A stretch of DNA of 27,458 nucleotides from a virus, in the IMG/VR virus record IMGVR_UViG_3300002460_000040, positions 1-27,458 of that record; one strand, written 5' to 3'. Of this stretch, positions 17 through 20,990 are shown one piece after another (position 1 is the stretch's first letter; every line of letters starts with the position of its first letter). A model generated the notes under the pieces. That model searched no databases and was not told the origin of the DNA. It saw only the letters and a program-made list of their open reading frames with translations. The translations under genes and the position numbers were made by a program.

Positions 17-754
17 ATGTTATCGGCAGATGGAGCATTCAATCAAAAATCGTCCTGGCCGGCGGAACATGGATTTCCGACAGATATAAATTTCAAGTGC
101 ATGACGTCAATGAATGATTCGCAAATATTGACGAACGAACGCATTTACATAGATCGCCCTGACTTCTATGGACATGATATGATTGAAAGGCATCTTAACA
201 GGTATCGATGGGCATCGACTGGAATCGTTCAGGGAGGCAAAGTCCTTGATGCGGCATGCGGGACCGGATATGGAGCGGCGATCCTGCTTAATAGCGCCAA
301 GAAATATATCGGTGTCGATATCGATGAAAAAGCCATAGATTATGCCATTAACCGAGCTGCTAAAATGGATATATGGGACAAGGCTCAATATATCATCATG
401 GATATTTCCAAGCTCGAATTTCAAAATGACTCGTTCGATTCTATCGTTTGCATTGAAACCATAGAGCATCTTGATGCCGATGATCAGGAATTGTTTATGA
501 GAAATGCCGTTCGATGCCTGAAATCTTCGGGTGATTTAATGATTACCACGCCGCATAAAGACAAAGAACCAATGACCGAATTTCATAAACATGAATTTTC
601 TCTTGAAACGTTTTCAATATTCCTTAAACAATTTTTCGAGAAGATAGATTTTTATGATCCAATTGAATTTAAAATTCCAGAAACGTTCATATTGGCAAAA
701 TGTTCTCATGGCTGGCTTCTAGAGACTCCTATGGTCCATGAGACCCACGGATGA
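17..754 (+). CDS. Class I SAM-dependent methyltransferase
   Basis: Small-molecule or glycan methyltransferase of the Rossmann (class I) type. Motif I is VLDAACGTGYGA at residues 76-87. The acidic end of strand 2 follows in GVDID (99-103), and a motif IV-like stretch (FDSIVCIETIEHL) lies near 140-153, the usual order for the Methyltransf_11/25 families. The start at 17 is chosen because GCGGAG lies six bases upstream and a possible upstream frame ends in TGA at 14-16, giving a TGAATG junction; ATG 104 is possible but has no ribosome site. The last dozen residues (after about 235) are encoded by the repeat array that follows, so the native C-terminus has probably been replaced. The substrate is unknown. 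Its place beside a nonulosonic acid synthase suggests sugar decoration, but that is inference. Confidence 0.8.
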   Translation: MLSADGAFNQKSSWPAEHGFPTDINFKCMTSMNDSQILTNERIYIDRPDFYGHDMIERHLNRYRWASTGIVQGGKVLDAACGTGYGAAILLNSAKKYIGVDIDEKAIDYAINRAAKMDIWDKAQYIIMDISKLEFQNDSFDSIVCIETIEHLDADDQELFMRNAVRCLKSSGDLMITTPHKDKEPMTEFHKHEFSLETFSIFLKQFFEKIDFYDPIEFKIPETFILAKCSHGWLLETPMVHETHG

Positions 755-900: not shown

Positions 901-1995
901 ATGAAACTTTTCAATAAGAATATAGGATCCGGCAATCCATGTTTCATAATCGCGGAAGCAGGGATCAATCACAATGGATCGATGGATAAAGCGATTGAAA
1001 TGATCAATATTGCCGCCAAAGCGGGAGTGGATGCCATTAAATTTCAAAAGAGAAATTTAAAAGCGCTTTATAGAACGGATGCCTTGTCAAATTCATCAAA
1101 AGAATCACATAGTCTTGGAGTCTATATTCCAATTCTATATCAATGCGAACTCAGCGAAGACAACCATAAAAAAATCTTCGATGAATGTCATAAAAAAGGA
1201 ATTGCATATTTATGCAGTGCATGGGATATCCCCAGCGTGGATTTTTTAGAAAGGCTGGGAGTAAGGGCATACAAAATCCCCAGCGCATGTTTCAGTGATA
1301 TATTTCTTATCAAACGTGTGATTGAAACGGGAAAACCTATGATCCTCTCTACGGGAATGCATTCTGAAAAAGAGATGGATGATCTTATTCCCGAATATCT
1401 CGCGATGGACAGCAAAAATCATTTGAGACCGGGCATTGCCCTAATGCATTGCATTTCATCTTATCCAACGGATAATAAAGACATCAATCTTGGATTCATG
1501 ATTAATATGAAGAAAAAGTATGATGTGCCGATAGGATATTCCGGCCATGAACGCGGCATTCCCACTTCTGTGGCAGCAGTGGCTATGGGTGCCAATTTGC
1601 TGGAAAGACATTTTACGCTGGATAGGACTCTGCCGGGTCCAGATCATTCCGCCAGCATAGAACCGCATGGTTTGGAAACACTTGTAAGACATGTAAGAGC
1701 CGTAGAAGAAGCTATGGGATCTGAAAAAAAGGTCAATCAAGGAGAAAAAGTAGCCAGAGAAATTTTGGGTAAATCTTTGACATGGGCCAGGTCTTATTCC
1801 ATTGAATCCGAGAACATCATAGAAGAAAAAAGTTTTTGCGCGACCAGTCCAGGTTACGGCATTCCTCCAAATGAAGCAGATAAATTTTTTGGATTATATT
1901 TAAGACATAATGTATGGATGGGGGAAAAAGTTGAGCTGACTGATTTCATGGAAGCTGATTTTATAATGTCTGAAAAAATGGCGATGCCGATATGA
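901..1995 (+). CDS. neuB: N-acetylneuraminate (nonulosonic acid) synthase, NeuB family
   Basis: Condenses phosphoenolpyruvate with a six-carbon amino sugar to make a nine-carbon nonulosonic acid (sialic, legionaminic or pseudaminic type). The 364 residues match the usual family length. Visible motifs are EAGINHNG (19-26), KFQKR (47-51), STGM (150-153), HCISSYP (183-189), GYSGHE (212-217) and ERHFTLDRTLPGPDHSAS (235-252). His216 and His237 correspond to the metal-binding histidines of NeuB enzymes. The end (about 285-350) fits the SAF, antifreeze-like domain. The start at 901 agrees with the family N-terminus, although no strong ribosome site precedes it. The next gene overlaps it (ATGA). The exact sugar made cannot be read from the sequence. 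No CMP-sugar activating enzyme (NeuA) or UDP-sugar epimerase is seen in the window, so these would come from upstream or from the host. Confidence 0.93.
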   Translation: MKLFNKNIGSGNPCFIIAEAGINHNGSMDKAIEMINIAAKAGVDAIKFQKRNLKALYRTDALSNSSKESHSLGVYIPILYQCELSEDNHKKIFDECHKKGIAYLCSAWDIPSVDFLERLGVRAYKIPSACFSDIFLIKRVIETGKPMILSTGMHSEKEMDDLIPEYLAMDSKNHLRPGIALMHCISSYPTDNKDINLGFMINMKKKYDVPIGYSGHERGIPTSVAAVAMGANLLERHFTLDRTLPGPDHSASIEPHGLETLVRHVRAVEEAMGSEKKVNQGEKVAREILGKSLTWARSYSIESENIIEEKSFCATSPGYGIPPNEADKFFGLYLRHNVWMGEKVELTDFMEADFIMSEKMAMPI

Positions 1996-2834
1996 TGCGA
2001 TGCGGCCTCAAAGCCAGGCCTTACGATATAAAAACAGTCATTTCCTTAAACCCGGAAGTGGTGGAAATCCATGCATCAAGCGATGATATGGTTCAAGATA
2101 TAACCGATTCTTATAATCTGCCTTTGATCGTTCATTTTCCAGAATACGATGGAACTGAATTGATGGATTCATCGAGTTTAGATGAAAGTAAAAGGCTTAG
2201 AGCTGAGCGATTTTATAATAATTGTTTTTCGATCACCAGAAAATGGGGGGAAAACTTTAAGGGGAAACCTAAAGCGATTCTTCATCCTGGAGGATGGTCG
2301 ATTGATCCGACAAAATCATGGGAAAAACATTATATAAGGCAGGCTTTGAAAAAAACTTTGAGAGGATTGAACCACACAGGCGTGGATTTCTTGATAGAAA
2401 ACATGCCCCCTAAACCGTGGTTTTATGGCGGGCAATGGTATTGTAATATCCTGATGGAACCCGTGGAAATACTCGATTTTTGTTTGACCACTGGACGCGG
2501 CTTATGTTTGGATTTATGCCATGCTTTCCTTTGGTGTCAATTCGTAAATTATGACATCATTCAATTCGTTAAAAAGGTTAAACCGGTCACGGCTCATATT
2601 CATATATCCGATGGAAAAGGAACCGATGGAGAAGGTATCCAAATAGACGAGGGAGATATGCCGATGGCTCAATTAATTCAATTGATTAAAGAATGGAACG
2701 TGGGAGTGGTTCCCGAGTGTTGGTGGGGCCATAAAAACAATTATGGCGGATTCAGAACGGCATGGTCTAGAATATCTGCTCATGCCGGGATCAATTCATT
2801 TTTCCCTGAAGGATCAAATGGCAACAGAACTTGA
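1992..2834 (+). CDS. TIM-barrel sugar isomerase/epimerase-like protein
   Basis: Resembles the xylose isomerase-like TIM-barrel superfamily (AP endonuclease 2/sugar phosphate isomerase). Motifs typical of metal-binding strand ends are visible: VEIHASSDD near 25-33, ILHPGG near 96-101, LIENMPP near 135-141, CLDLCHAF near 172-179, AHIHISDGKGTDGEG near 202-216 and VPECWWGHKNN near 241-251. The Glu, His, Asp and Glu in these motifs are the expected metal ligands. The start codon overlaps the NeuB stop (ATGA), so the two genes are translationally coupled and probably serve one pathway. TIM-barrel proteins of this kind are found beside neuB in surface-sugar clusters. The exact reaction is not known to me. 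The 3' end overlaps the next gene by 17 bases. Confidence 0.75.
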   Translation: MMRCGLKARPYDIKTVISLNPEVVEIHASSDDMVQDITDSYNLPLIVHFPEYDGTELMDSSSLDESKRLRAERFYNNCFSITRKWGENFKGKPKAILHPGGWSIDPTKSWEKHYIRQALKKTLRGLNHTGVDFLIENMPPKPWFYGGQWYCNILMEPVEILDFCLTTGRGLCLDLCHAFLWCQFVNYDIIQFVKKVKPVTAHIHISDGKGTDGEGIQIDEGDMPMAQLIQLIKEWNVGVVPECWWGHKNNYGGFRTAWSRISAHAGINSFFPEGSNGNRT

Positions 2835-3114
2835 TGAAACCAGTCTGATATCCAAATTGGCTGATATAGATTCAGAGATCGCCACCATCACCGATACCCT
2901 GGGAACCAGCGGGACCGGAGGCGTCCAATATACAGATTATAGTATCGGCAATAAATCGGTCTCTGGAAGCAAAAGACTTGAACTTCTGATCAAGATTCGA
3001 GAGCATTACCAGGGACTTTTAGAAAAGGTCCCCAAAATCATTCGGCGCGATACCGGATATGAAATTGAGGATCGAACAGGCGCGCCTTTATATCAGCAAA
3101 TTGGCGATGAATAA
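2818..3114 (+). CDS. Small head-tail connector protein, possibly gpW-like
   Basis: A 98-residue protein with a helical N-terminus (ISKLADIDSEIATI), a short beta-hairpin-like centre with GNKSVSG, and a helical C-terminal half with ELLIKIREHYQGLLEK. This order recalls the gpW/head-completion type of small connector protein, and the next genes are head-closure and neck genes. The start at 2818 is preferred over the longer frame from 2743 because GAAGGA lies just upstream and the extra 25 residues would be read from inside the preceding gene. Assignment to gpW is by context and general pattern, not by a decisive motif. Confidence 0.6.
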   Translation: MATELDETSLISKLADIDSEIATITDTLGTSGTGGVQYTDYSIGNKSVSGSKRLELLIKIREHYQGLLEKVPKIIRRDTGYEIEDRTGAPLYQQIGDE

Positions 3115-3135
3115 TTGAAATTAAAGGAGGATCAA

Positions 3136-3342
3136 ATGATTGAATTAAACTTCGAGAATTTATCGATACCTATTCCATCAAAAGAAGAAATTCATTCCAA
3201 CATGTCGCAGATGGACGTACAAGATACAAATAATGAATTTTTTAAAATTGAAATGGAACTTCATGATATGCTCAAAGGAATGACGTTAGAACAAAGACAT
3301 AAAATTAATGATATAGTCAAGAAATTTATCGACGAAGAATAA
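3136..3342 (+). CDS. Small acidic phage protein of unknown function
   Basis: A 68-residue acidic protein, not recognised. It begins with an extended stretch (MIELNFENLSIPIPSKEEI) and ends in two predicted helices (FFKIEMELHDMLKGM and EQRHKINDIVKKFIDEE). The start is set at ATG 3136 because a perfect AGGAGG stands six bases upstream. An in-frame TTG at 3115 would include that ribosome site in the coding region and is rejected. It lies between the connector gene and the head-closure gene and is probably made with them. Confidence 0.7.
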   Translation: MIELNFENLSIPIPSKEEIHSNMSQMDVQDTNNEFFKIEMELHDMLKGMTLEQRHKINDIVKKFIDEE

Positions 3343-3345
3343 GTC

Positions 3346-3714
3346 ATGTCTTTATCAGATGATACTGCTGATTTGCTTGATACCGCCTTATGGGGAGAAT
3401 TGGTGACGATTCGGCGTAACACGCCGGTTTATGATGATATAGGAACTGAAACCGATTCATCCGGCTGGGCCACCGTCACCACAGCCAATGCTGATATTCA
3501 ACCGATATCGGGTGGTATGAATCAAGGCGAATTAGGAGAAAAGGTGATTTCTACTCACGTCATATTTTTTGGCAGCGGTATAGATATCATTGAAGGCGAT
3601 AGAATCAGACAAAGCGGCTGGTCTACTGGAGATGATGAATTCACGGTCAATAAAATCAATTCTCATGATGATCATTCAGAAGCGCTCTGTTCGGTTGCAA
3701 GGGGACATTCCTAA
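3346..3714 (+). CDS. Phage head closure (head-tail joining) protein
   Basis: The 122-residue protein has the pattern of the Phage_H_T_join/SPP1 gp16 family: an N-terminal segment, then a small beta barrel with VTIRRNTPVYDDIGTETDS, a WATVTTANADIQPISG strand pair, THVIFFGSGIDIIEGDRI and a closing strand pair. Proteins of this family plug the portal after DNA packaging and give the tail its docking site. Length and position, just before an HK97-gp10-like gene and a tail terminator, agree with this. Its stop overlaps the next start (TAATG). Confidence 0.78.
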   Translation: MSLSDDTADLLDTALWGELVTIRRNTPVYDDIGTETDSSGWATVTTANADIQPISGGMNQGELGEKVISTHVIFFGSGIDIIEGDRIRQSGWSTGDDEFTVNKINSHDDHSEALCSVARGHS

Positions 3715-4184
3715 TGTCTGTAGAATTCGATGAGATCAGATTAAAGAATCTGCTCATGAAATTAGGAAAGATCGGCAGCGAAGTTGTTCCGATCCTTCAG
3801 AATGCCGTGGATGTTGGGACGGCGATGGTCCAGAAACATGCTAGAGAAGGACATTTTCAAGTGGGGACCGGCATTGGATCATCTAAAAAAGCATTGGACA
3901 GTTTTATGATATTTACAAATCCCGATGGAACGCCAAGGTTCAAAATCAGGACCGGAAATCTAGTAAGCTCTATACAAGCCACACCTTCTAGAAAAAAAGG
4001 GTCTTCTGTGGAAGGAGAAATAAATGTCGGCCAAGAATACGCGGCTGCGGTCGAATATGGAGCACCCGGTAGACAGCCATTTCCATTCATGCGTCCTGCT
4101 TTGGAAGAAACCAAGCATCCTTGGATTAAGGAATCTGCCGATCGGATAGAAACCTGGCTTAAAAAATACGATGAAAGAAGTTGA
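3714..4184 (+). CDS. HK97 gp10-like tail completion protein
   Basis: A 156-residue protein with the typical end of the HK97-gp10 family, EYGAPGRQPFPFMRPALEE, preceded by IRTGNLVSSIQATP and a glycine-rich strand pair with NVGQEYAAAVEYG. Members act at the head-tail interface of long-tailed phages and help tail assembly or completion. The gene order of head closure, gp10-like, tail terminator and tail tube is standard. The coding region overlaps the next gene by 14 bases. Confidence 0.87.
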   Translation: MSVEFDEIRLKNLLMKLGKIGSEVVPILQNAVDVGTAMVQKHAREGHFQVGTGIGSSKKALDSFMIFTNPDGTPRFKIRTGNLVSSIQATPSRKKGSSVEGEINVGQEYAAAVEYGAPGRQPFPFMRPALEETKHPWIKESADRIETWLKKYDERS

Positions 4185-4638
4185 AGAGGAACTTTATAAA
4201 TCTTTGAGAGACGACGATGATCCCAATGACGGCATTCCGGCGCTCCTGGGGAACACATCCACGGCGCCTTATAATGTTTATCATTCTCATCTTCCAGAAA
4301 GCGTTGATTTTAGGCAGGATGATGATCATAGTTTCATCACATATTTCCTCGTTTCTTCTATTGGAGACCAGGATCAACATGATAGAAGTGGCACAACGCT
4401 CGAACAACTTTATCAATTCACCGTATGGTCAAGATACTTATCCAAGATGCACGATATCCACGCCAGGATCAAACTTAGACTCAACAGGAAATGGAAAGTA
4501 TCTGATCCAACGGAAAATGCCGTGATTCATCAGGTAAGGTTCGAAGCGGACGGCCCTGAAACATGGGACGATGATTTTAAGGTATTCACCAAGCCTGCGA
4601 CATATAGAGTATGGGTGCGCGATGACAACATTGGTTGA
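4171..4638 (+). CDS. Tail terminator/tail completion protein (DUF3168-like)
   Basis: 155 residues. The order of a helical N-terminus (EEELYKSLRDDDD), an early strand (YNVYHSHLPE), a strand with LYQFTVWSRYLSKMHDIHARIKLRL and a final strand (VFTKPATYRVWVRD) fits the family of tail terminators that includes DUF3168 proteins. These form the ring at the top of the tail and fix tail length together with the tape measure. The start lies inside the preceding gene. The end overlaps the following Maf-like gene by 17 bases, so translation of that gene is tied to tail expression. Confidence 0.7.
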   Translation: MKEVEEELYKSLRDDDDPNDGIPALLGNTSTAPYNVYHSHLPESVDFRQDDDHSFITYFLVSSIGDQDQHDRSGTTLEQLYQFTVWSRYLSKMHDIHARIKLRLNRKWKVSDPTENAVIHQVRFEADGPETWDDDFKVFTKPATYRVWVRDDNIG

Positions 4639-5887
4639 TCAAACAGTCAGGATAGACAGGCAGCAAAAAGAAAAACATGCCGGCCAATATAAGGATGTTT
4701 ATAAGCCTTTTGCCGATTCTGTCTGCGATATCGATTTGAGCGAGAAAGATTCTGGATGTCGTGTCAGGTTCCAGAACCGTGTAGAACTGAATATAGACGA
4801 TAGGATCATCTTTGATGAATTCGTCATAACCATTCGCCGGATCATGCCGAATGGTGCATTCCCCCAGGCTGATGGAAACCTTGATATACTGGAATCACAG
4901 CTTCTCAAGATGGAAAAATCGGGCATTAGAATAGAAAAAGGATTTCCATTAAAAACAATTGATAGAGATCCTATCGCCGATCAGGTAATGGATGAATGGG
5001 TTGGAACATATGCCATCAATATAGCAGAACATTATCACGAAATAAAATCCGGCAGGCATATAGGCGAATTTGAAAATATAGCCAAAAGGAATGTTCCGGC
5101 GGTATGCGTGGGAGCCGGCCCGAGTTTAGATAAAAATATCGATGAACTTCATAGGTTCCCAGGGATCATTATATGCGCGGATAGGGCTTATAAAATGCTT
5201 CTAGCCCGTAAAATAGAACCGGATATAGTGATCAGCATTGATTGCCATTATGAGCTGGTGGCGGAATATTTGAATCATCCGTGGAACGAGCGCCACACGC
5301 TTATCCTCAACGTTTGTGCTGATCCGAAAATATGCGATATATGGAAAGGCCAAAAATTTTGGTTCATCATGATGCATCCAGGCGTGCAATTCATGGATAG
5401 GATCCTTCCCGTTCTTTTCCCAAAATTTCAGGGTCTCATCAATGCCGGCTGCGTAGGGAATTCGAGTGTTCTTTTAGCCGATAGAATGGGATTGGATCCC
5501 GTATTTTTGGTGGGACAGGATTTTTCATATACAGGGGGAAAGGTCCATGCCGATAGGTTTGAATTCGATCAACATAGCGGCGAATTCAAGGGAAAGATAC
5601 AAGACAATCATGCTGAATTGTTGGCGAAACGATCCGGGAAAATAGAGATAAACGGCATTCAAACTTATGTGCCGTTTAAAATGTATATGGAAACAATGTA
5701 TGCGCTCAGAGAATCAATGAAAATAAATGTGATCAATTGCACGGAAGGCGGCATCCTGAACCGCCTCCCCCAAAAAAACTTGAAAACGACGATCGATGAA
5801 CTTTGGGCCAGCACCAATGGGATTTATCTTGATGTAAAAGAAAAATTGAAACTTATGCGCCATTCAAAAGGCGCATGGAAGCAATAA
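4622..5887 (+). CDS. Maf/DUF115-type nonulosonic acid transferase-like protein
   Basis: 421 residues with a clear MAF_flag10 (formerly DUF115, MptE-like) core. Signature stretches are VCVGAGPSLDKNID (161-174), IEPDIVISIDCH (198-209), FLVGQDFSYTGGKVHAD (295-311) and NVINCTEGGI (369-378). In bacteria, Maf proteins of this family move nonulosonic acids onto Ser/Thr residues of flagellin; archaeal MptE relatives are pterin diphosphokinases. The first 110 residues are outside the core and not recognised. The start at 4622 lies within the tail terminator gene; a longer frame from 4571 has no ribosome site and is less likely. The gene sits between tail terminator and tail tube, an unusual place for an enzyme, and the window also encodes NeuB. 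I infer that it glycosylates a tail protein, most simply the tail tube encoded next. A pterin role cannot be excluded. Confidence 0.85.
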   Translation: MTTLVDQTVRIDRQQKEKHAGQYKDVYKPFADSVCDIDLSEKDSGCRVRFQNRVELNIDDRIIFDEFVITIRRIMPNGAFPQADGNLDILESQLLKMEKSGIRIEKGFPLKTIDRDPIADQVMDEWVGTYAINIAEHYHEIKSGRHIGEFENIAKRNVPAVCVGAGPSLDKNIDELHRFPGIIICADRAYKMLLARKIEPDIVISIDCHYELVAEYLNHPWNERHTLILNVCADPKICDIWKGQKFWFIMMHPGVQFMDRILPVLFPKFQGLINAGCVGNSSVLLADRMGLDPVFLVGQDFSYTGGKVHADRFEFDQHSGEFKGKIQDNHAELLAKRSGKIEINGIQTYVPFKMYMETMYALRESMKINVINCTEGGILNRLPQKNLKTTIDELWASTNGIYLDVKEKLKLMRHSKGAWKQ

Positions 5888-5909: not shown

Positions 5910-6668
5910 ATGGCCATAGAAAAACAAAATCTTCTGCTTGGCTTGGGAGAATTATACTTCAAAAGAAAAAATGACGCATCTGGCAAATATAGGCGCGTCG
6001 GAAACCTGAAAGGAACGGTAACTTTTTCTTATGAATATGATGTGGCTGAACAAAAGCCGGGCGATAGGTTGACCATAGCTAAACGCGTTAAAACTGCTGA
6101 AAGATGTTCATTGGTGGCTGAGGTGGCGGATTTTACGGTGGCTCAGCTTATACCAGTATTAGGGCTTACCATATCAACATCACAACTCACTGGCACCACA
6201 ACGATCAGGATCCACGAACAACTGACATTGGGCGCGAGCATTACGACCACCACGAACCTTGCGCAAAGTGCCGTCAGCATCACCAGTCAAGAATACACCA
6301 AACTTGATCAAAGCGTCAGGTACACGAGAGGAACGAACTTGACCGCAGCCATCGCCAAAATCAGGCATCTGAACGCATCTTTAAACAGCGCCGTGATCAA
6401 TGTGTATTATGATTACAAAGACACCAATTCGCTCAGGGTGCGGGTGGGCGATGACAAAGATCTTGAAGAGGTCGACTTGAAATTCGTTCACAAAGATGGG
6501 AATGGAAAATTCATTCAGATTGAAATCCCCATTGCCACAATAGCCGGCGGCTTATCGATTCCGTTCAATGAAACGGCATTTACCACTTATGGGATTACAT
6601 TTCAGGGGCTTGGCAGCACAACGGCTGGCCCTGGATTGAGCCTGTTCAAAATAATTAGGGAGGTATAA
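5910..6668 (+). CDS. Major tail tube protein
   Basis: 252 residues, largely beta-strand, starting MAIEKQNLLLGLGELYFKR, which is a common way for siphovirus tail tube proteins to begin. It lies directly before the two-frame chaperone genes and the tape measure, the conserved place of the tube gene. A strong GAGGAGG lies ahead of the start, as expected for an abundant structural protein. A Ser/Thr-rich central part (residues about 90-135, with STSQLTGTTTIRIHE and ASITTTTNLAQSAVSITSQ) would offer many acceptor sites for O-linked sugar. That last point is inference from the neighbouring Maf-like gene. Confidence 0.82.
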   Translation: MAIEKQNLLLGLGELYFKRKNDASGKYRRVGNLKGTVTFSYEYDVAEQKPGDRLTIAKRVKTAERCSLVAEVADFTVAQLIPVLGLTISTSQLTGTTTIRIHEQLTLGASITTTTNLAQSAVSITSQEYTKLDQSVRYTRGTNLTAAIAKIRHLNASLNSAVINVYYDYKDTNSLRVRVGDDKDLEEVDLKFVHKDGNGKFIQIEIPIATIAGGLSIPFNETAFTTYGITFQGLGSTTAGPGLSLFKIIREV

Positions 6669-7405: not shown

Positions 7406-9493
7406 ATGGCGATAATTGGAACATTAACAGCCGTTTTAATAGCTGAAACGAAAAATTTTAGCGCGAATCTCAAAAAAGCATCGGAGGACGTTTCGGGTTT
7501 TGCGAGCAAAACCAGAAAATTTCTATTAGACCATAAAATCCTTATAGGTGCGGCTGTCACTGGATTGGTTGCATTCACCGTCAAAGCTATAAAAGAATTC
7601 GGCGAAGAAGAAAAAGCAATTGTCGCTCTTACCCAATCGCTCAAAAATCAGGGGATTACCAGTTTGGCAGTGGTTGAAGATTTGAAACAATATGCTTCAA
7701 GCCTTCAAAAAATAACGACATTTTCGGATAACTCCATCCTTTCAATGCAAACCCAATTAGTCACTTTTGGACTTACTGGAGATGCTCTCAAAAAAACCAC
7801 GAAAACGGCCCTTGATTTTGCTGCCGCCACTGGAACAGATTTGACACAATCGGCGAAAATACTTGGGAAAGCATTCGTCGGCGTTACGGGAGAGCTCTCT
7901 CGTCATGGCATTATAATCGATGAAAACATTCCCAAAAATCAAAAATTCAATGCAATCTTAAAACAACTTGAAGAAAGGTTCGGCGGGCAAGCGGAAGCAG
8001 AAAGGAATACGACCCTTGGCCAATGGAAGGCATTGAACAACGTATGGGAAAACACGATGGGTATTATTGGAGGTTTAGTCGGCGGACCTTTGACAAAGTT
8101 GGCGGAAATATCGGCTAAACAACTTGAAAAAGTAAACGAGTCAATTCCTATTTTAAAAGAATTTTCTGTAGAAATACTCCAGCAACTCGGGAAAGAATTC
8201 AAGCAACTCGCAGAGGATCATAACGAATTCGCAAGAGATTTCACCAATACCATGAAAGCCTTAATATCAAAATCTACCGGCGTACTGGGATTCCGTTTGG
8301 AAATGCAGAGAACGGCCCAGGTAACTGGAAGAAGTTGGGACGTTATTGAAGGAGGCGCTAAGGAGGTTACAGGTTCGATTAAAGAACAATCTGAACAAAC
8401 GAAAAAAACTGCCGTTGATTGGGAAGCTCTGCAACAAAGAATAATCAATGCCACTATCGTCACTACTGAAGACCTCAGATCGGAATATCTTAAAAGAACG
8501 GATGCGGCCAATGAATCATTTGAAAATACGGCCAACTTTTCACAACAATTTGCCGTCCGTATGGCTGAAGATACCAAATCATGGAACACTATCGGCATCG
8601 ACGCCATATTTAAATTTCGAGATGCTTTTGCTTCCGGCATGGCCGATATGATATTAGAAGGCGGCAAGTTTAAAGATGCGATGGAGCAAATAGGCAAGGA
8701 TATATTAAGGATCTTCATCGAAGAAGTAATTAAAAGAATGGTTGCTGCATGGATTACGGCAATGGTTCAAATGGCGGTTGCACAAGGATTAATAAGCGGA
8801 GCAGGAGCAGCAGCAGGAACAGAAGGAGCAGGAGCAGGATTGATCGCTCTAGGTCTACCTGTTGCCATTATTGCAGCTATCGCCTTATTAGGTGGACAAG
8901 CAATTACCGGACATGGAACATTCGGTGAATTTACCAGAAGGGGATTCGGAGGAAGAAGCGAATCTGGAAGGAGGAAAGAAGGAATTCAAGCTGCTGCTGA
9001 AATATTCCGGGCCAAGATGAACAAACCTCTAAACATGCCCAGGATGGTAAGGGAATGGCTGCAAAACAGGGACCCGGATGTATTATTTCGCATCATGTCT
9101 GAAGAAGCAGGCACTGGTCCAGAATTTGCGACAAAGTGGCTGCCCACGGTTATAGAAAGAATTGAAGCGGGCGACACGGCTGCAAGGATAGTTGATATTC
9201 TCACACATGGCCACTATGGGCCTCTTTTGGCCGCCGCTGCTCATGGAGCTATCATAAGAGAACCTGCTATTTTCAGAACGCTCAGATCAGGAAAAATGGG
9301 GATCATGGGAGAAGCGGGTCCTGAAGCCATAATTCCACTGGGCGGGAGAGGAATGGGGATCACCAATTTAAACATCACGATTTCAGGACAATTCGTCGAG
9401 GCCGATGAAGCCAAATGGGATAGATTGATACGGGCCAAATTGATACCGCAAATCGATAGGATCAACCATAAGCGAAGGACGGGTATCATCTGA
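7406..9493 (+). CDS. Tape measure protein
   Basis: 695 residues. It begins with the pattern common to tape measures (ILTAVLIAETKNFSANLKKASE-like, residues 5-27) with a hydrophobic segment near 46-60. Long helical stretches follow, then a strongly hydrophobic part (about 444-498, with VAAWITAMVQMAVAQ and LIALGLPVAIIAAIALLGG), and near 634-645 the typical GEAGPEAIIPLGG. Tape measures set tail length and may help DNA enter the cell. At 695 residues the predicted tail is rather short for a siphovirus, by the usual rule of length per residue. The stop overlaps the next start by one base. Confidence 0.9.
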   Translation: MAIIGTLTAVLIAETKNFSANLKKASEDVSGFASKTRKFLLDHKILIGAAVTGLVAFTVKAIKEFGEEEKAIVALTQSLKNQGITSLAVVEDLKQYASSLQKITTFSDNSILSMQTQLVTFGLTGDALKKTTKTALDFAAATGTDLTQSAKILGKAFVGVTGELSRHGIIIDENIPKNQKFNAILKQLEERFGGQAEAERNTTLGQWKALNNVWENTMGIIGGLVGGPLTKLAEISAKQLEKVNESIPILKEFSVEILQQLGKEFKQLAEDHNEFARDFTNTMKALISKSTGVLGFRLEMQRTAQVTGRSWDVIEGGAKEVTGSIKEQSEQTKKTAVDWEALQQRIINATIVTTEDLRSEYLKRTDAANESFENTANFSQQFAVRMAEDTKSWNTIGIDAIFKFRDAFASGMADMILEGGKFKDAMEQIGKDILRIFIEEVIKRMVAAWITAMVQMAVAQGLISGAGAAAGTEGAGAGLIALGLPVAIIAAIALLGGQAITGHGTFGEFTRRGFGGRSESGRRKEGIQAAAEIFRAKMNKPLNMPRMVREWLQNRDPDVLFRIMSEEAGTGPEFATKWLPTVIERIEAGDTAARIVDILTHGHYGPLLAAAAHGAIIREPAIFRTLRSGKMGIMGEAGPEAIIPLGGRGMGITNLNITISGQFVEADEAKWDRLIRAKLIPQIDRINHKRRTGII

Positions 9494-15824: not shown

Positions 15825-15852
15825 TTTGATATTTAAGGATGTGATTTCAAAA

Positions 15853-15878
15853 CCCCGGAATTTTCCGGGGGTTTTTTT
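15853..15878 (+). terminator. Intrinsic terminator of the late operon
   Basis: CCCCGGAA (15853-15860) pairs with TTCCGGGG (15863-15870) around a two-base TT gap, followed by seven T at 15872-15878. It stands 28 bases after the holin-like stop and marks the end of the structural and lysis block. The T-run ends only eight bases before the next gene's ATG. Confidence 0.92.
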
Positions 15879-15885
15879 ATTTCAT

Positions 15886-17398
15886 ATGACGACAAAAGAT
15901 TTCCATGCGTGGACAAAAGAAGAACTTATCGCAGAAGTAATGCGATTAAGGAAGCGCAAGAAATACGGTTTAGTTTGGGAAGATAAACCTGAAGACATCT
16001 CAGAACTTTGTAAAACAAAATTACCTGTTTTGGCGGAATCTACCGATAAGGAAGTTTCGTTCAATACATCTACACCAACCAATATTCTGATTGAAGGAGA
16101 AAATTATCATGCCTTATCAGTTTTAAATTACACGCACAAGGGAAAGATCGATGTCATTTATATCGATCCACCTTACAATACCGGAGCAAAGGACTGGAAA
16201 TACAATAACAACTATGTCGACATAAATGACAGTTACCGTCATAGCAAATGGCTCAGCATGATGTCGAAAAGATTGCAGCTTGCAAAAAATTTGCTTACAC
16301 ATGACGGCGTTTTAATTTGTGCCATTGACGATAATGAATTTCACCATTTGGGCACACTTTTGGAAGAGATTTTTTGGGGTTGGGAGATTCATTGTGTTAC
16401 GATTGTGCACAACCCCAGAGGTATTCAGGGGGCAAATTTTTCATATACGCACGAATATGCCTACTTTGTATTTCGGAAAAACCAAAAAGTAATTGGTCAT
16501 CGCAAAATAAACCGAGAAGACATAGACTGGCGCAATCTCCGCGCCAACGGTGGAGAATCGTTAAGGACAGGTGCAAGAAATTGCTTTTACCCAATTTTAG
16601 TTAAGGAAACCAATTCTAAGAACTAAAAAGACAACAAATGGATTTGAAATAAAGATAGGAAAAGACTTTGGTATGGTAAGAACTGTTTGGCAAGACAGCC
16701 GGTATGATGCTAACGAGTATGGAACAAAATTGGTTCATTCTTTGGTTCCAGGCACTGATTTTGATTTTCCTAAATCAGTATTCAATATATATGACTGTAT
16801 TGCGCCTATTCTTTACAAAAGGAAAAATGCGGTTGTTTTGGATTTCTTTGCTGGATCTGGAACGACCGGGCACGCAGTTTTAATCCTCAATAAAGAGGAC
16901 AAAGAAATTGGGTATATAAATTTCATCCTTTGCACAAACAATGAAAACAAAATTGCTGAGGATGTCTGTTATCCACGAATCAAAAAGGTTATAAAAGGTC
17001 ACAAAGATTATCCTGAGCTCACCAATATCCCGGCCAATCTGAAATATTTCCGCACGGATTTTGTTGATGCTGAACCCACGAATAGAAACAAACAGAAACT
17101 AACCAGGAAGGCAATCGAAATGCTTTGCTTCAAAGAAGGAACTTTTGAAAAAGTAATAAGTAAAAAGAACTTTAAAATATTCCGCAATTCAAACCATTTT
17201 ACCGGTATCATATTTGATCCTCTTCAAATTCCCGAATTTAAAAGCACAATATCGAAAATAAAGGGATCAATAAGTGTCTATATCTTTTCGCTTGGCGGAG
17301 ATTTGTATGAGGATGAATTTGATGAGCTCAAAAGTAAAGTGACCCTATCCCCGATACCCGAAGCCATCCTGCGGCTGTATAGGAAGATTTTTAAATGA
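15886..17398 (+). pseudogene. Broken type III-type (beta) DNA methyltransferase, Mod-like
   Basis: Type III Mod proteins methylate one strand of a short recognition site. The first reading frame (15886-16626) keeps an intact N-terminus (KYGLVWEDKPED) and the catalytic motif IV, DPPYNTG (94-100 of this part). It then ends at TAA 16624-16626. A second frame (open from 16601, ATG 16673, stop 17398) continues with FDFPKSVFNIYDCI and the SAM-binding motif I, DFFAGSGTTGHAV. The order IV before I is that of the beta class. The two parts are in different frames (frame 1, then frame 2), and the part normally found between FYPILV and the FDFPKS region seems shorter than usual, so there is both a frameshift and a likely internal deletion. 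No promoter is visible between the terminator and the ATG. Two separate chains that join again cannot be excluded but are unlikely. Confidence 0.85.
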
Positions 17399-18448: not shown

Positions 18449-19387
18449 ATGATTGAAAGAGAAAATCGATATATTTTAAAAGAAACATTAGATGAGGCAC
18501 AATCTTCTGTCGGATCTGTACATTTGAGCGAAAATGGTCAGACATTGGTAACTGGAAGCGTTGACAAGAAAGTGCGAATATATCGACTTGAGAATAAGAA
18601 ATATGCATTGAAGGAAGAATTAAACCAGGCGCAAAGCTATATTTGGTCTTTGCATATGAGCGGAGATAGTCAGACACTTGCAAGTAGAAGCGCCGACGGA
18701 AAAGTGCAGATATATCGACTCCAAAATGGACAATATGAATTGAAAGAAACATTGAATGAGACCGCGGTTTTTGTCCGAGCTGTGCATGTGAGCGGGGATG
18801 GGCGGATCCTTGTGAGCGGAAGTGATGATGGAAAAGTGCGGGTATACCGGCGCCAAAACGGGCAGTATATGTTGAAAGAAACATTGCGTGAGGCGAAAGC
18901 CTCTATTTGGTCTGTGACTATGAGCAGGGATGGCCAAACGCTTGCGAGCGGAGGCGATGACAAAAAAATGCGAGTGTACCGCCTTGAAAATGATTGGTAC
19001 ACATTGAAAGAAACGCTGGATGAAGCACGGGCTCCTATTTGGTCTATACATATGAGCAGAGCTAGCCAGACACTTGTGAGCGGAAGTTATGACGACAAAG
19101 TGCGAGTGTATCGATTTAAAGACAAGCGGTATGTGCTAAGAGAAACATTGGATGAGGCAGAAGTCTCTAACCTAACTGTGTATATGAGCGAAGATGGCCA
19201 GATATTTGTGAGCGGAAGTGCTGACGATAAAGTGCGGGTATACCGCTTTGAAGGCGGGCGATACGCATTGAAAGAAACGTTGGATGAAGCGTGGGGTCCT
19301 ATTTGGTCTGTGACTATGAGCGGGAATGGCCAGACACTTGCGAGCGGAAGCTATGATAACAAAGTGCGGGTATATCGATGCGTCTAA
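18449..19387 (+). CDS. Seven-bladed WD40-like beta-propeller protein A
   Basis: 312 residues made almost wholly of seven repeats of 44 residues after a six-residue start. The repeat reads YxLKETLDEA, a variable stretch of about four residues, then xSVxMSxDGQTLxSGSxDxKVRVYRLENG. This is the WD40 blade pattern with EA in place of GH and YR in place of WD. Seven blades should close one ring. There is no signal peptide or membrane segment, so the protein is expected in the cytoplasm. Propellers of this kind bind proteins or peptides. AAGGAA is eight bases ahead of the start. A second complete copy follows at 20034. Blades of this type are rare in phages, and I know of no named family for it. Confidence 0.8.
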   Translation: MIERENRYILKETLDEAQSSVGSVHLSENGQTLVTGSVDKKVRIYRLENKKYALKEELNQAQSYIWSLHMSGDSQTLASRSADGKVQIYRLQNGQYELKETLNETAVFVRAVHVSGDGRILVSGSDDGKVRVYRRQNGQYMLKETLREAKASIWSVTMSRDGQTLASGGDDKKMRVYRLENDWYTLKETLDEARAPIWSIHMSRASQTLVSGSYDDKVRVYRFKDKRYVLRETLDEAEVSNLTVYMSEDGQIFVSGSADDKVRVYRFEGGRYALKETLDEAWGPIWSVTMSGNGQTLASGSYDNKVRVYRCV

Positions 19388-19406
19388 ACACGTAACCGGA
19401 GATAAA

Positions 19407-19559
19407 ATGTTTAAAAAAGAAAATCGGTATGTTTTAAAAGAGACATTAAAAGAGGCACAATTTTCTATCGTAGCTGTCCATATGAGCGGGGACGGTCAGA
19501 CATTGGTGAGTGGAAGCGTTGACAAGAAAGTGCGGATATATCGGCTTGAAAATGGGTAG
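19407..19559 (+). pseudogene. One-blade fragment of the propeller gene
   Basis: A 50-residue frame that begins like the other two copies (MFKKENRYVLKETLKEAQ) and keeps exactly one complete blade, ending VRIYRLENG before a TAG. It starts 20 bases after the stop of copy A and has GGAG ahead of its ATG. Since one blade cannot form a closed ring, it is probably the remains of a third copy cut down by deletion. It could still be translated. Confidence 0.7.
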
Positions 19560-19618
19560 TCAGGAAGACAGAAAATCATTTCAAAGAATATGGAATCATA
19601 GGCTGACTTTTTTAAAGA

Positions 19619-20041
19619 ATGCGAAAAATGTTAAGACATTATTGGCGTAAATTTATAAAAGAAATGTTGAAAGGAAGTAAGATAAAAAGAAGCAATATAA
19701 TTGAAATAAACGATGGAGGAGGAATATATCCATCAACAAAGAAAGTTTGGAGAGAAATTTACGGGACGCAAGAAATTCTCCACCCTGGAATGACCCTCCG
19801 CGATTATTTCGCAGGAAAGGCTTTGAGCTCATTAATTTTAGCTCCTAACCAATCAAATGCCGATCATTGTATTGATTCTCAAAATAAAAAGTTGAAACGA
19901 TCAAAAGATAAGCATTGTAGTTATTGTCTAAACAAAAAACCAAGAACAAGGCAAGATTTGAGTAACGCTGCTTATTTCTACGCCGACGCCATGATTACTG
20001 CACGATCTTATATTCCAAATAGAGGGAAAATAAATGATTGA
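19619..20041 (+). CDS. Hypothetical phage protein between the propeller genes
   Basis: 140 residues. HPGMTLRDYFAGKALSSLI (about 54-72) and, near the end, LSNAAYFYADAMITAR (about 115-130) form a pair of motifs I recall from many small phage hypothetical proteins, usually near the early genes. The middle (CSYCLNKKPRTRQ) is a less conserved insert. The start codon is uncertain since no good ribosome site is seen; ATG 19628 is possible. The end overlaps the second propeller gene by eight bases. Its presence between propeller copies suggests that the cassette was inserted around it or duplicated across it. Confidence 0.65.
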   Translation: MRKMLRHYWRKFIKEMLKGSKIKRSNIIEINDGGGIYPSTKKVWREIYGTQEILHPGMTLRDYFAGKALSSLILAPNQSNADHCIDSQNKKLKRSKDKHCSYCLNKKPRTRQDLSNAAYFYADAMITARSYIPNRGKIND

Positions 20042-20990
20042 AAAAGAAAATCCATATTTTTTAAAAGATACATTAAATGAGGCACAAAAATCTGTCAGAT
20101 CTGTACACGTAAGCATGGATGGCCAAACACTTGCGAGCGGAAGTACCGACAATAAAGTGCGGATTTATCGTCTTGAAAACGGGCGGTATGTATTGAAAGA
20201 GGAGTTGAATGAGGCGCAAGACAATATTTGGTCTGTGTATATGAGCGGAAGTGGACAAATCTTGATAAGCGGAAGTCTCGATAAAAAAGTGCGAATCTAT
20301 CGGTTTGAAAGTGGTCGGTATGCGCTAAAAGAAACGTTGGATGAGGCAGGGGACTGTGTCTTATCCGTGCATATAAGCGAAGACGGTCAGTTGCTGATGA
20401 GTGGAAGTGCTGACAATAATGTCCGAGTGTACCATCTTGAAGGTGGGCGGTATGTGCTAAAAGAAACATTGCGTGAAGCGAAAGCTTCTATTTGTTCTGT
20501 GATTATGAGCAGGGATGGCCAAACGCTGGCAAGCGGGAGCGACGATAAAAAAGTGCGAGTATATAGGCTTGAAAATGGACAGTACGCGCTAAAAGAGATA
20601 TTGGATGACGCGCAAGATTATATCATGTCCGTACATATGAGCGGAGCTGGCCAGACGCTGGCAAGCGGAGGCATTGATTATACAATGCGAGTTTATAGAT
20701 TTGACGGCAAGCAATATGTATTCAAAGATATGTTCGGTGAAGCGAAAAAATATGTCATGTCTGTATGCGTGAGCGAGGATGGAAAGATTCTTGTGAGCGG
20801 AAGTGCTGATAACAAAACCCGGGTGTACCGACTTGAAAGCGGGCGATATGCGCTAAAAGAGACATTGGATGAAGCGCAAGATTTTATTCTATCTGTGCAT
20901 ATGAGCAGAGACAATCAGACATTGGTGAGCGGAAGCTATGATGCCAAAGTGCGAATTTATCGGCTTAGAGAAAGACCAAAAATAAGTTGA
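20034..20990 (+). CDS. Seven-bladed WD40-like beta-propeller protein B
   Basis: 318 residues, again seven 44-residue blades after MIEKEN, with a short tail (RERPKIS). The blade pattern is the same as in copy A. The fourth blade of each copy shares LKETLREAKASI and about 24 identical bases (TATGAGCAGGGATGGCC and on), so the two genes come from duplication of the whole gene rather than from growth of blades alone. Differences gather in the four to six residues after EA (QKSVR, QDNIW, GDCVL, KASIC, QDYIM, KKYVM, QDFIL), at the edge of the top face. Function unknown; a binding protein for several partners is likely. Confidence 0.8.
   Translation: MIEKENPYFLKDTLNEAQKSVRSVHVSMDGQTLASGSTDNKVRIYRLENGRYVLKEELNEAQDNIWSVYMSGSGQILISGSLDKKVRIYRFESGRYALKETLDEAGDCVLSVHISEDGQLLMSGSADNNVRVYHLEGGRYVLKETLREAKASICSVIMSRDGQTLASGSDDKKVRVYRLENGQYALKEILDDAQDYIMSVHMSGAGQTLASGGIDYTMRVYRFDGKQYVFKDMFGEAKKYVMSVCVSEDGKILVSGSADNKTRVYRLESGRYALKETLDEAQDFILSVHMSRDNQTLVSGSYDAKVRIYRLRERPKIS

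Follow-up and report, generated by a model that had tools for sequence, protein, structure and literature searches.

Maf-type DUF115 genes and a predicted partial nonulosonic acid pathway beside the capsid and tail genes of a phage

The first 27,458 bases of the viral record IMGVR_UViG_3300002460_000040 (bases 1-27458, here termed the window) carry genes of a putative nonulosonic acid (NulO) system, a NeuB-family synthase among them, together with a DUF115 gene that lies next to the gene for the tail tube. A sequence-only reading of the window had proposed that the phage decorates its own tail with a sialic-like sugar. The record is 49,940 bases long, and higher coordinates given below are counted in the same way and fall beyond the window. 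The 32 bases at its start are identical to the 32 at its end, so that it probably represents an entire genome of 49,908 bp assembled as a circle. Genes for the terminase, the portal and capsid, the neck, the tail tube and the tape measure are all present in the record, and neither a tyrosine integrase nor a tRNA was found in it.

Sugar cassette and DUF115 genes

The genes of the cassette and of the DUF115 family are as follows, the last six being outside the window.

17-754, plus strand: SAM-dependent methyltransferase (PF13649, E 7.3e-20); the true start is probably near 101-110
901-1995, plus strand: NeuB-family synthase that condenses phosphoenolpyruvate (PEP) with a sugar (PF03102, 263.7 bits, E 1.8e-78)
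1992-2834, plus strand: xylose-isomerase-like TIM barrel that may feed NeuB as an epimerase/isomerase (PF01261, E 1.4e-16)
4622-5887, plus strand: DUF115-C, with a Maf-type glycosyltransferase domain (PF01973, E 3.9e-29; PseD, E 9.9e-23)
34699-35673: nucleotide-sugar dehydratase-like SDR of the GDP-mannose dehydratase (GMD)/LegB kind (PF16363, E 2.3e-75)
38793-39854: DUF115-A, forming with DUF115-B a pair directly 5′ of the major capsid gene (PF01973, E 3.2e-29)
39805-40674: DUF115-B, directly 5′ of the major capsid gene (PF01973, E 2.3e-20)
42824-43594: NeuA/PseF-type cytidylyltransferase (PF02348, E 2e-17)
43576-45291: B12 radical-SAM protein (PF04055, E 3.2e-18)
45288-46391: BNR/sialidase-like protein within the cassette (PF13088, E 6.6e-7, below cut-off)

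Profile matches agree with the earlier identification of the window genes as a methyltransferase, a NeuB synthase, a coupled sugar isomerase-like protein and a Maf/DUF115 protein. The PF03102 match covers NeuB over its full length, and the active-site residues of the barrel are present; Glu19, Lys47, Gln49, Lys125, Ser128, Ser150, Tyr188, His216, Glu235, His237 and Asp248 are invariant in the four sequences aligned. The TIM-barrel gene overlaps that of NeuB by 4 bp. Its product has Glu136, Asp174, His177, His204 and Glu242 invariant across five phages and retains the acidic/histidine site typical of metal-dependent epimerases; it would be the most probable supplier of NeuB's acceptor sugar. 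A methyltransferase orthologue is found in the sugar cassette of every relative in which that region is visible, and the enzyme is probably a tailoring enzyme of the cassette.

No activating enzyme had been seen in the window. This is correct for the window, but the record does encode one, the cytidylyltransferase at 42824-43594, whose profile best matches the CMP-Neu5Ac synthetase 1EYR (E 1.3e-35) and which falls below the PseF equivalog cut-off (82.4 vs 205.7 bits). A pathway without an activating enzyme was thus rejected.

Two start sites, 4571 and 4622, can be considered for DUF115-C. The latter, chosen earlier, is the better one, because the gene in the relative L008 likewise overlaps its upstream neighbour by 17 bp.

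DUF115 proteins compared with Maf and MptE

The family PF01973 spans both the Maf_flag10 glycosyltransferases and MptE, an archaeal 6-hydroxymethylpterin diphosphokinase, and its Pfam label is MptE-like. The same pfam01973 is the central domain of Maf (PMC11339370). All three DUF115 proteins exceed the curated PF01973 (Maf_flag10) cut-off. The best NCBIfam model for DUF115-C is PseD, a flagellin-modification protein of the Maf type (E 9.9e-23), at a score far below the 670-bit cut-off, which suits full-length proteins. With phmmer, DUF115-C matches the Maf structure 5MU5 at E 7.5e-5 and the MptE structure 8sd5 at E 0.28; with a 31-sequence profile the values are 4.6e-19 for 5MU5 and 2e-14 for MptE. 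In addition, the C-terminal N-x-T-E-G-G region is reached by the Maf profile match only and not by the MptE match.

An earlier fold of DUF115-C from four sequences was poor (pLDDT 49.9). The model from the 31-sequence alignment has pLDDT 84.5 and pTM 0.74, and Foldseek ranks 5MU5 first against it (E 3.6e-10), with MptE second-best (9.6e-5). A match to MptE rather than Maf had been named earlier as the outcome that would tell against sugar transfer; both the sequence profiles and the predicted fold place the DUF115 protein nearer to Maf.

The active motifs are kept in DUF115-A and DUF115-C, and both have the N-x-T-E-G-G region, which lies beyond the core shared with MptE, in all aligned lineages. 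In DUF115-B the motifs are degenerate (ENRTTSTI, AASPNLSQT and AAGASLAKS; record 39805-40674, L008:2575-3483, L009:4599-5423, L011:4784-5605), and yet the gene is always retained beside DUF115-A. Perhaps DUF115-B is a non-catalytic partner.

Similarities to the Maf proteins of Magnetospirillum magneticum (5MU5) and Campylobacter (PseD/Maf4) include the central PF01973/Maf_flag10 domain and the C-terminal N-x-T-E-G-G region, as well as linked genes for a NulO synthase and a CMP-NulO synthetase and several paralogues per genome. The phage proteins differ in being encoded beside capsid and tail-tube genes, with no flagellin gene recognized among the annotated genes, and in being shorter. The three-domain Maf architecture, with a Rossmann-like N-terminus and a helical/TPR C-terminus, is absent from the 438-residue DUF115-C, in which a neck-adaptor-like domain replaces the Maf N-terminal domain and the C-terminal part is reduced to short helices or missing.

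This N-terminal domain emerges from Foldseek matches of about 100 residues to phage neck and head-tail adaptor proteins (7z4w, 8hdr and 9b42), with BFVD adaptor matches down to E 3.9e-5. Foldseek output prints no query range, and the matches were assigned to residues 18-116 of the 438-residue reading, since nothing else outside the Maf domain has a comparable size and beta content. Neither a profile comparison with the head-closure protein (probability 1.4%) nor a search of PHROGs gave a significant match for the domain, and its neck-like character is therefore a matter of fold comparison. The domain could be a captured adaptor that might carry the enzyme to the tail.

Virion genes and distribution of the gene set

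The virion genes next to the DUF115 genes, with the tape measure gene, are listed here; the last is outside the window.

3346-3714, plus strand: head completion/head closure protein (PF05521, E 1.6e-5)
3714-4184, plus strand: neck/tail completion protein, HK97 gp10-like (phrog_5, E 5.2e-14)
4171-4638, plus strand: tail terminator-like protein (weak matches: phrog_78, E 0.0034; phrog_123, E 0.018)
5910-6668, plus strand: major tail (tube) protein with a conserved Ser/Thr-rich stretch (phrog_2175, E 4.7e-8; phrog_807, E 1.7e-4)
7406-9493, plus strand: tail tape measure protein (phrog_991, E 2.3e-9)
40689-41663: major capsid protein (PF25209, E 1.5e-17)

DUF115-C thus lies where the sequence-only reading had put it, with the terminator-like gene upstream and the major tail protein gene downstream. 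The Ser/Thr-rich part of the tail tube noted there is also real: Ser and Thr make up 38-40% of 40-residue windows at about positions 81-130, against a proteome mean of 12%, and an alignment shows the stretch conserved in three relatives. The tail tube is the presumed acceptor of DUF115-C. The capsid is as probable a target as the tail, if not more so, because two of the three Maf genes adjoin the capsid gene.

Elsewhere in the window, a Mod-type DNA methyltransferase is apparently split across open reading frames (ORFs) 15826-16626 and 16673-17398 (region 15826-17398), and 18449-20990 encodes beta-propeller proteins with WD40-like repeats in tandem; two copies are complete and one is a fragment, and their repeat units are very similar.

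Relatives with GC contents of 40-63% have a common layout: Maf-Maf-capsid, NeuA-radical SAM-methyltransferase-NeuB-isomerase, and Maf-tail tube. The closest relative, L008/G001, repeats the whole layout with most genes at 35-72% identity, and G002 and G003/G004 repeat it at about 25-50%. A 65.6 kb phage-like contig (62.6% GC, 58-bp terminal repeats) inside a Sphingomonadales metagenome-assembled genome (MAG) has the full layout, including the SDR. Gene order is the same in G000, G001, G002, G003/G004 and the Sphingomonadales-MAG phage; two Maf genes are 5′ of the capsid gene in every case, and one Maf gene is 5′ of the tail tube gene wherever the contig includes the tail region. A scan with a capsid alignment yielded seven loci, all seven with DUF115 before the capsid gene. 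In one relative (L096:7894-9896) the decoration-like gene 5′ of DUF115-A is present in duplicate.

G001 and L097 represent one species, as do G003 and G004, and no ratio of nonsynonymous to synonymous substitution (dN/dS) is obtainable from these near-identical pairs. Between close relatives, nonsynonymous differences (pN) are far below synonymous ones (pS) in DUF115-A, DUF115-B, NeuA, capsid and decoration genes, and, wherever silent sites are not saturated, dN/dS comes to about 0.04. Judged by these patterns, DUF115-A and DUF115-B are under purifying selection. Chance ORFs were rejected on the strength of the profile matches and the conserved gene order. Bacterial contamination was likewise rejected, as the contigs themselves encode capsid, portal, terminase and tail proteins and two records have terminal repeats.

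Single-sequence scans of viral sequences with the DUF115 or NeuB of the window gave no match, and alignment-based scans were required. INPHARED had no match for DUF115-C, DUF115-A, the DUF115 protein of L103 or the tail tube. A scan of genome contigs with DUF115-A found no relative; the sole lead to the host is the Sphingomonadales-MAG contig, which may be mis-binned.

Scans that started from DUF115 alone gave 17 lineages at 35% identity. In four of these both NeuB and NeuA are near DUF115, and neither was found without the other. By comparison, three of 50,697 annotated-phage records have a NeuB match, one of them being a bacterial contig; the two counts come from different collections and do not amount to a formal co-occurrence test. 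Association of DUF115 with NeuB and NeuA by chance nevertheless seems unlikely, and the co-occurrence that had been suggested as a check is seen in relatives and in unrelated phages. The order in L103 is capsid, a 151 aa protein, DUF115, NeuA and NeuB. L115 has tail fibre, DUF115, a methyltransferase-like gene and NeuA, followed at a distance by radical SAM and NeuB; its DUF115 protein (L115:6682-8373) has 563 aa, the C-terminal part being methyltransferase-like by eye only. Shortly 5′ of the terminase gene, L116 (4222-10805) carries NeuB, a UDP-GlcNAc 2-epimerase of the NeuC type, NeuA and DUF115, i.e. a fuller Neu5Ac-type pathway with a Maf in an unrelated phage. DUF115 is directly 3′ of the tail tube gene in L118 and L122, and two genes after the major head protein in L111.

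A NeuB alignment run against viral contigs matched at least 545 that carry NeuB, and the best 80 were retained. Among L030-L079, many contigs have two distinct NeuB genes in one large glycan cluster. By eye, the 484-kb phage LR756508.1 (L005, 5252-12068) has a NeuB-family gene next to GDP-sugar enzymes and to several short ORFs that look like glycosyltransferases of the sialyltransferase type, and the marine Kyanoviridae genome MH319754.1 (L006, 6116-8816) has a row of cytidylyltransferase-like, aminotransferase-like and NeuB genes, a NulO cluster of a cyanophage near a psbA-like gene.

Proposed role and alternative explanations

The sequence itself shows which genes are present, the families they belong to, that they are linked to capsid and tail genes, and that the set is conserved. 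With these in view, the phage probably makes a CMP-activated nonulosonic-type sugar and places it on its capsid and tail-tube proteins during assembly. This would be a cytoplasmic O-glycosylation system that acts on the phage's own building blocks. NeuB would condense PEP with a sugar that host or phage has made, perhaps supplied by the TIM-barrel enzyme and the SDR; the radical-SAM protein and the methyltransferase would tailor the sugar, and the NeuA-like enzyme would add CMP to activate it. Three Maf-type glycosyltransferases would then transfer it to Ser/Thr of virion proteins: DUF115-A, with or aided by DUF115-B, to the major capsid protein, and DUF115-C to the tail tube, perhaps docked by its neck-adaptor-like domain. 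We infer here the enzyme activities, the identity of the sugar, its acceptors, the order of tailoring and the benefit, which may be shielding or an altered particle surface. Maf acts on flagellin within the cytoplasm (PMC13317340). Such a site of action suits virion subunits, because these are cytoplasmic and need no export.

Several observations weigh against the proposal. No NeuB is near DUF115 in 13 of the 17 lineages, many of the loci being partial, and outside this phage family the adjacency of DUF115 to capsid and tail genes is suggestive and not statistically strong. The Ser/Thr richness of the tail tube is weak evidence for glycosylation, as such composition is common in beta-rich phage tail proteins. 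The absence of an epimerase, pointed out in the sequence-only reading, holds for the NeuC type: no NeuC/LegG-type epimerase (PF02350) was found in G000, G001, G002 and G004, nor a DegT aminotransferase (PF01041) in G000-G004, and the SDR was seen in two lineages only. With both PF01041 and PF02350 missing, the phage genes fall short of what any known N-acylated nonulosonic acid (legionaminic, pseudaminic or Neu5Ac) requires.

The phage NeuB itself adds to these points. It shares the full PF03102 barrel and catalytic residues with the NeuB/PseI/LegI synthases, but it is below the curated equivalog cut-offs of NeuB_NnaB (300 vs 399.65 bits) and PseI (220.5 vs 340.25 bits). Arg314 of Neisseria NeuB contacts the N-acetyl group of ManNAc. 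The aligned position in the phage protein is Ser316; it also differs from the native chain in 4IPI (Ala) and 4IPJ (Lys), which are presumably Arg314 mutants of Neisseria NeuB. The C-terminal antifreeze-like domain is degenerate here and wholly absent in G002-G004. Without an Arg314 equivalent and with that domain lost in relatives, the NeuB product may therefore be unusual. It would be a NeuB-type ulosonic acid, perhaps tailored by radical SAM chemistry and methyl transfer, and it is not demonstrably sialic-like in its N-acyl groups. The earlier interpretation is partly supported: the idea of a phage sugar system aimed at its own particle stands, with Maf favoured over MptE, DUF115 and NeuB co-occurring and a NeuA present, but the choice of target and the sialic-like N-acyl chemistry need qualifying, and mimicry or hiding would be a conceivable purpose.

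The main rival holds that the enzymes modify the host surface (capsule, lipopolysaccharide or flagellin) for superinfection exclusion or receptor change, and that their position among late genes is an accident of insertion. Phages are known to remodel the nonulosonic acids of a host capsule enzymatically, by means of EpaA/EpaB in Acinetobacter prophages (PMC12053666), and both the large NeuB-containing glycan clusters of many viral contigs and the BNR/sialidase-like gene in the cassette would fit such a role. EpaA and EpaB are similar in being phage-borne nonulosonic acid chemistry, but they alter a host-made capsule sugar in lysogeny and have no transferase linked to virion genes. Those known cases are prophages, and with no tyrosine integrase found, lysogenic conversion is less likely here. 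Three paralogues have also held their places beside capsid and tail genes across deep divergence, flippase, polymerase and flagellin genes were not recognized among the annotated genes, and the neck-like domain points to the virion. Host-surface modification is considered unlikely.

Less probable still, the DUF115 proteins would be MptE-like pterin kinases or virion-assembly factors without catalysis. The Pfam label, the second rank of MptE in the structural search and the lost motifs of DUF115-B could be cited for this; the PF01973 core fold and the GAGPS motif are common to MptE and the phage proteins. Yet Maf outscores MptE in every comparison, MptE is without the C-terminal region common to Maf and has another genomic context, and no pterin pathway genes were recognized among the annotated genes, although no dedicated search was made. 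Also against it are the four separate lineages in which DUF115 is linked to both NeuB and NeuA, the motifs kept in A and C and the purifying selection on A and B. That the NeuB/NeuA products serve another end, such as a small molecule or DNA modification, with the Maf proteins using a host-made CMP-sugar, would agree with the many DUF115 phages that have no NeuB nearby and with radical-SAM and methyltransferase genes that could belong to a different pathway, but it is very improbable, as biosynthetic and Maf genes are co-inherited in this phage family and the family's NeuB proteins form one clade (SH-aLRT 89).

Glycosylation of the virion by phage enzymes is not in itself new: phage-encoded enzymes glycosylate capsid and tail tube in mycobacteriophages (Freeman et al. 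2023, as cited in PMC12619734 and PMC11652166). The targets presumed here are the same and the glycosyltransferases are again phage-encoded; however, the glycan was shown in mycobacteriophages and is predicted here from genes, and the present phage encodes Maf-type enzymes together with some of the steps that make the sugar. The mycobacteriophages reportedly use other glycosyltransferase families and host-supplied sugars. What appears new is the presence of Maf-type enzymes and the phage's own NeuB/NeuA genes beside virion genes; no report linking Maf/DUF115 enzymes to capsid or tail genes, or a phage NeuB/NeuA pathway to them, was found in the open-access literature. A more general view can be offered tentatively and may well prove too broad: that Maf-type glycosyltransferases are a widespread, unrecognized class of virion-modifying phage enzymes, here with one enzyme per virion protein, the tail enzyme docking via a captured adaptor domain and the sugar laid down during assembly.

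If virion glycosylation by these enzymes is correct, phages apply the chemistry of bacterial flagellin glycosylation to the capsid and tail of their particles and encode much of the sugar pathway themselves, and a function would be assigned to phage proteins currently filed as ‘MptE-like’. One transferase matched to one neighbouring acceptor gene would aid the question of how Maf chooses its acceptor without a sequon. Sialylated-like phage particles would also have a natural route of production, and the reason for a charged, nine-carbon-type sugar on a viral coat, be it protection, diffusion, adhesion or evasion, would become testable.

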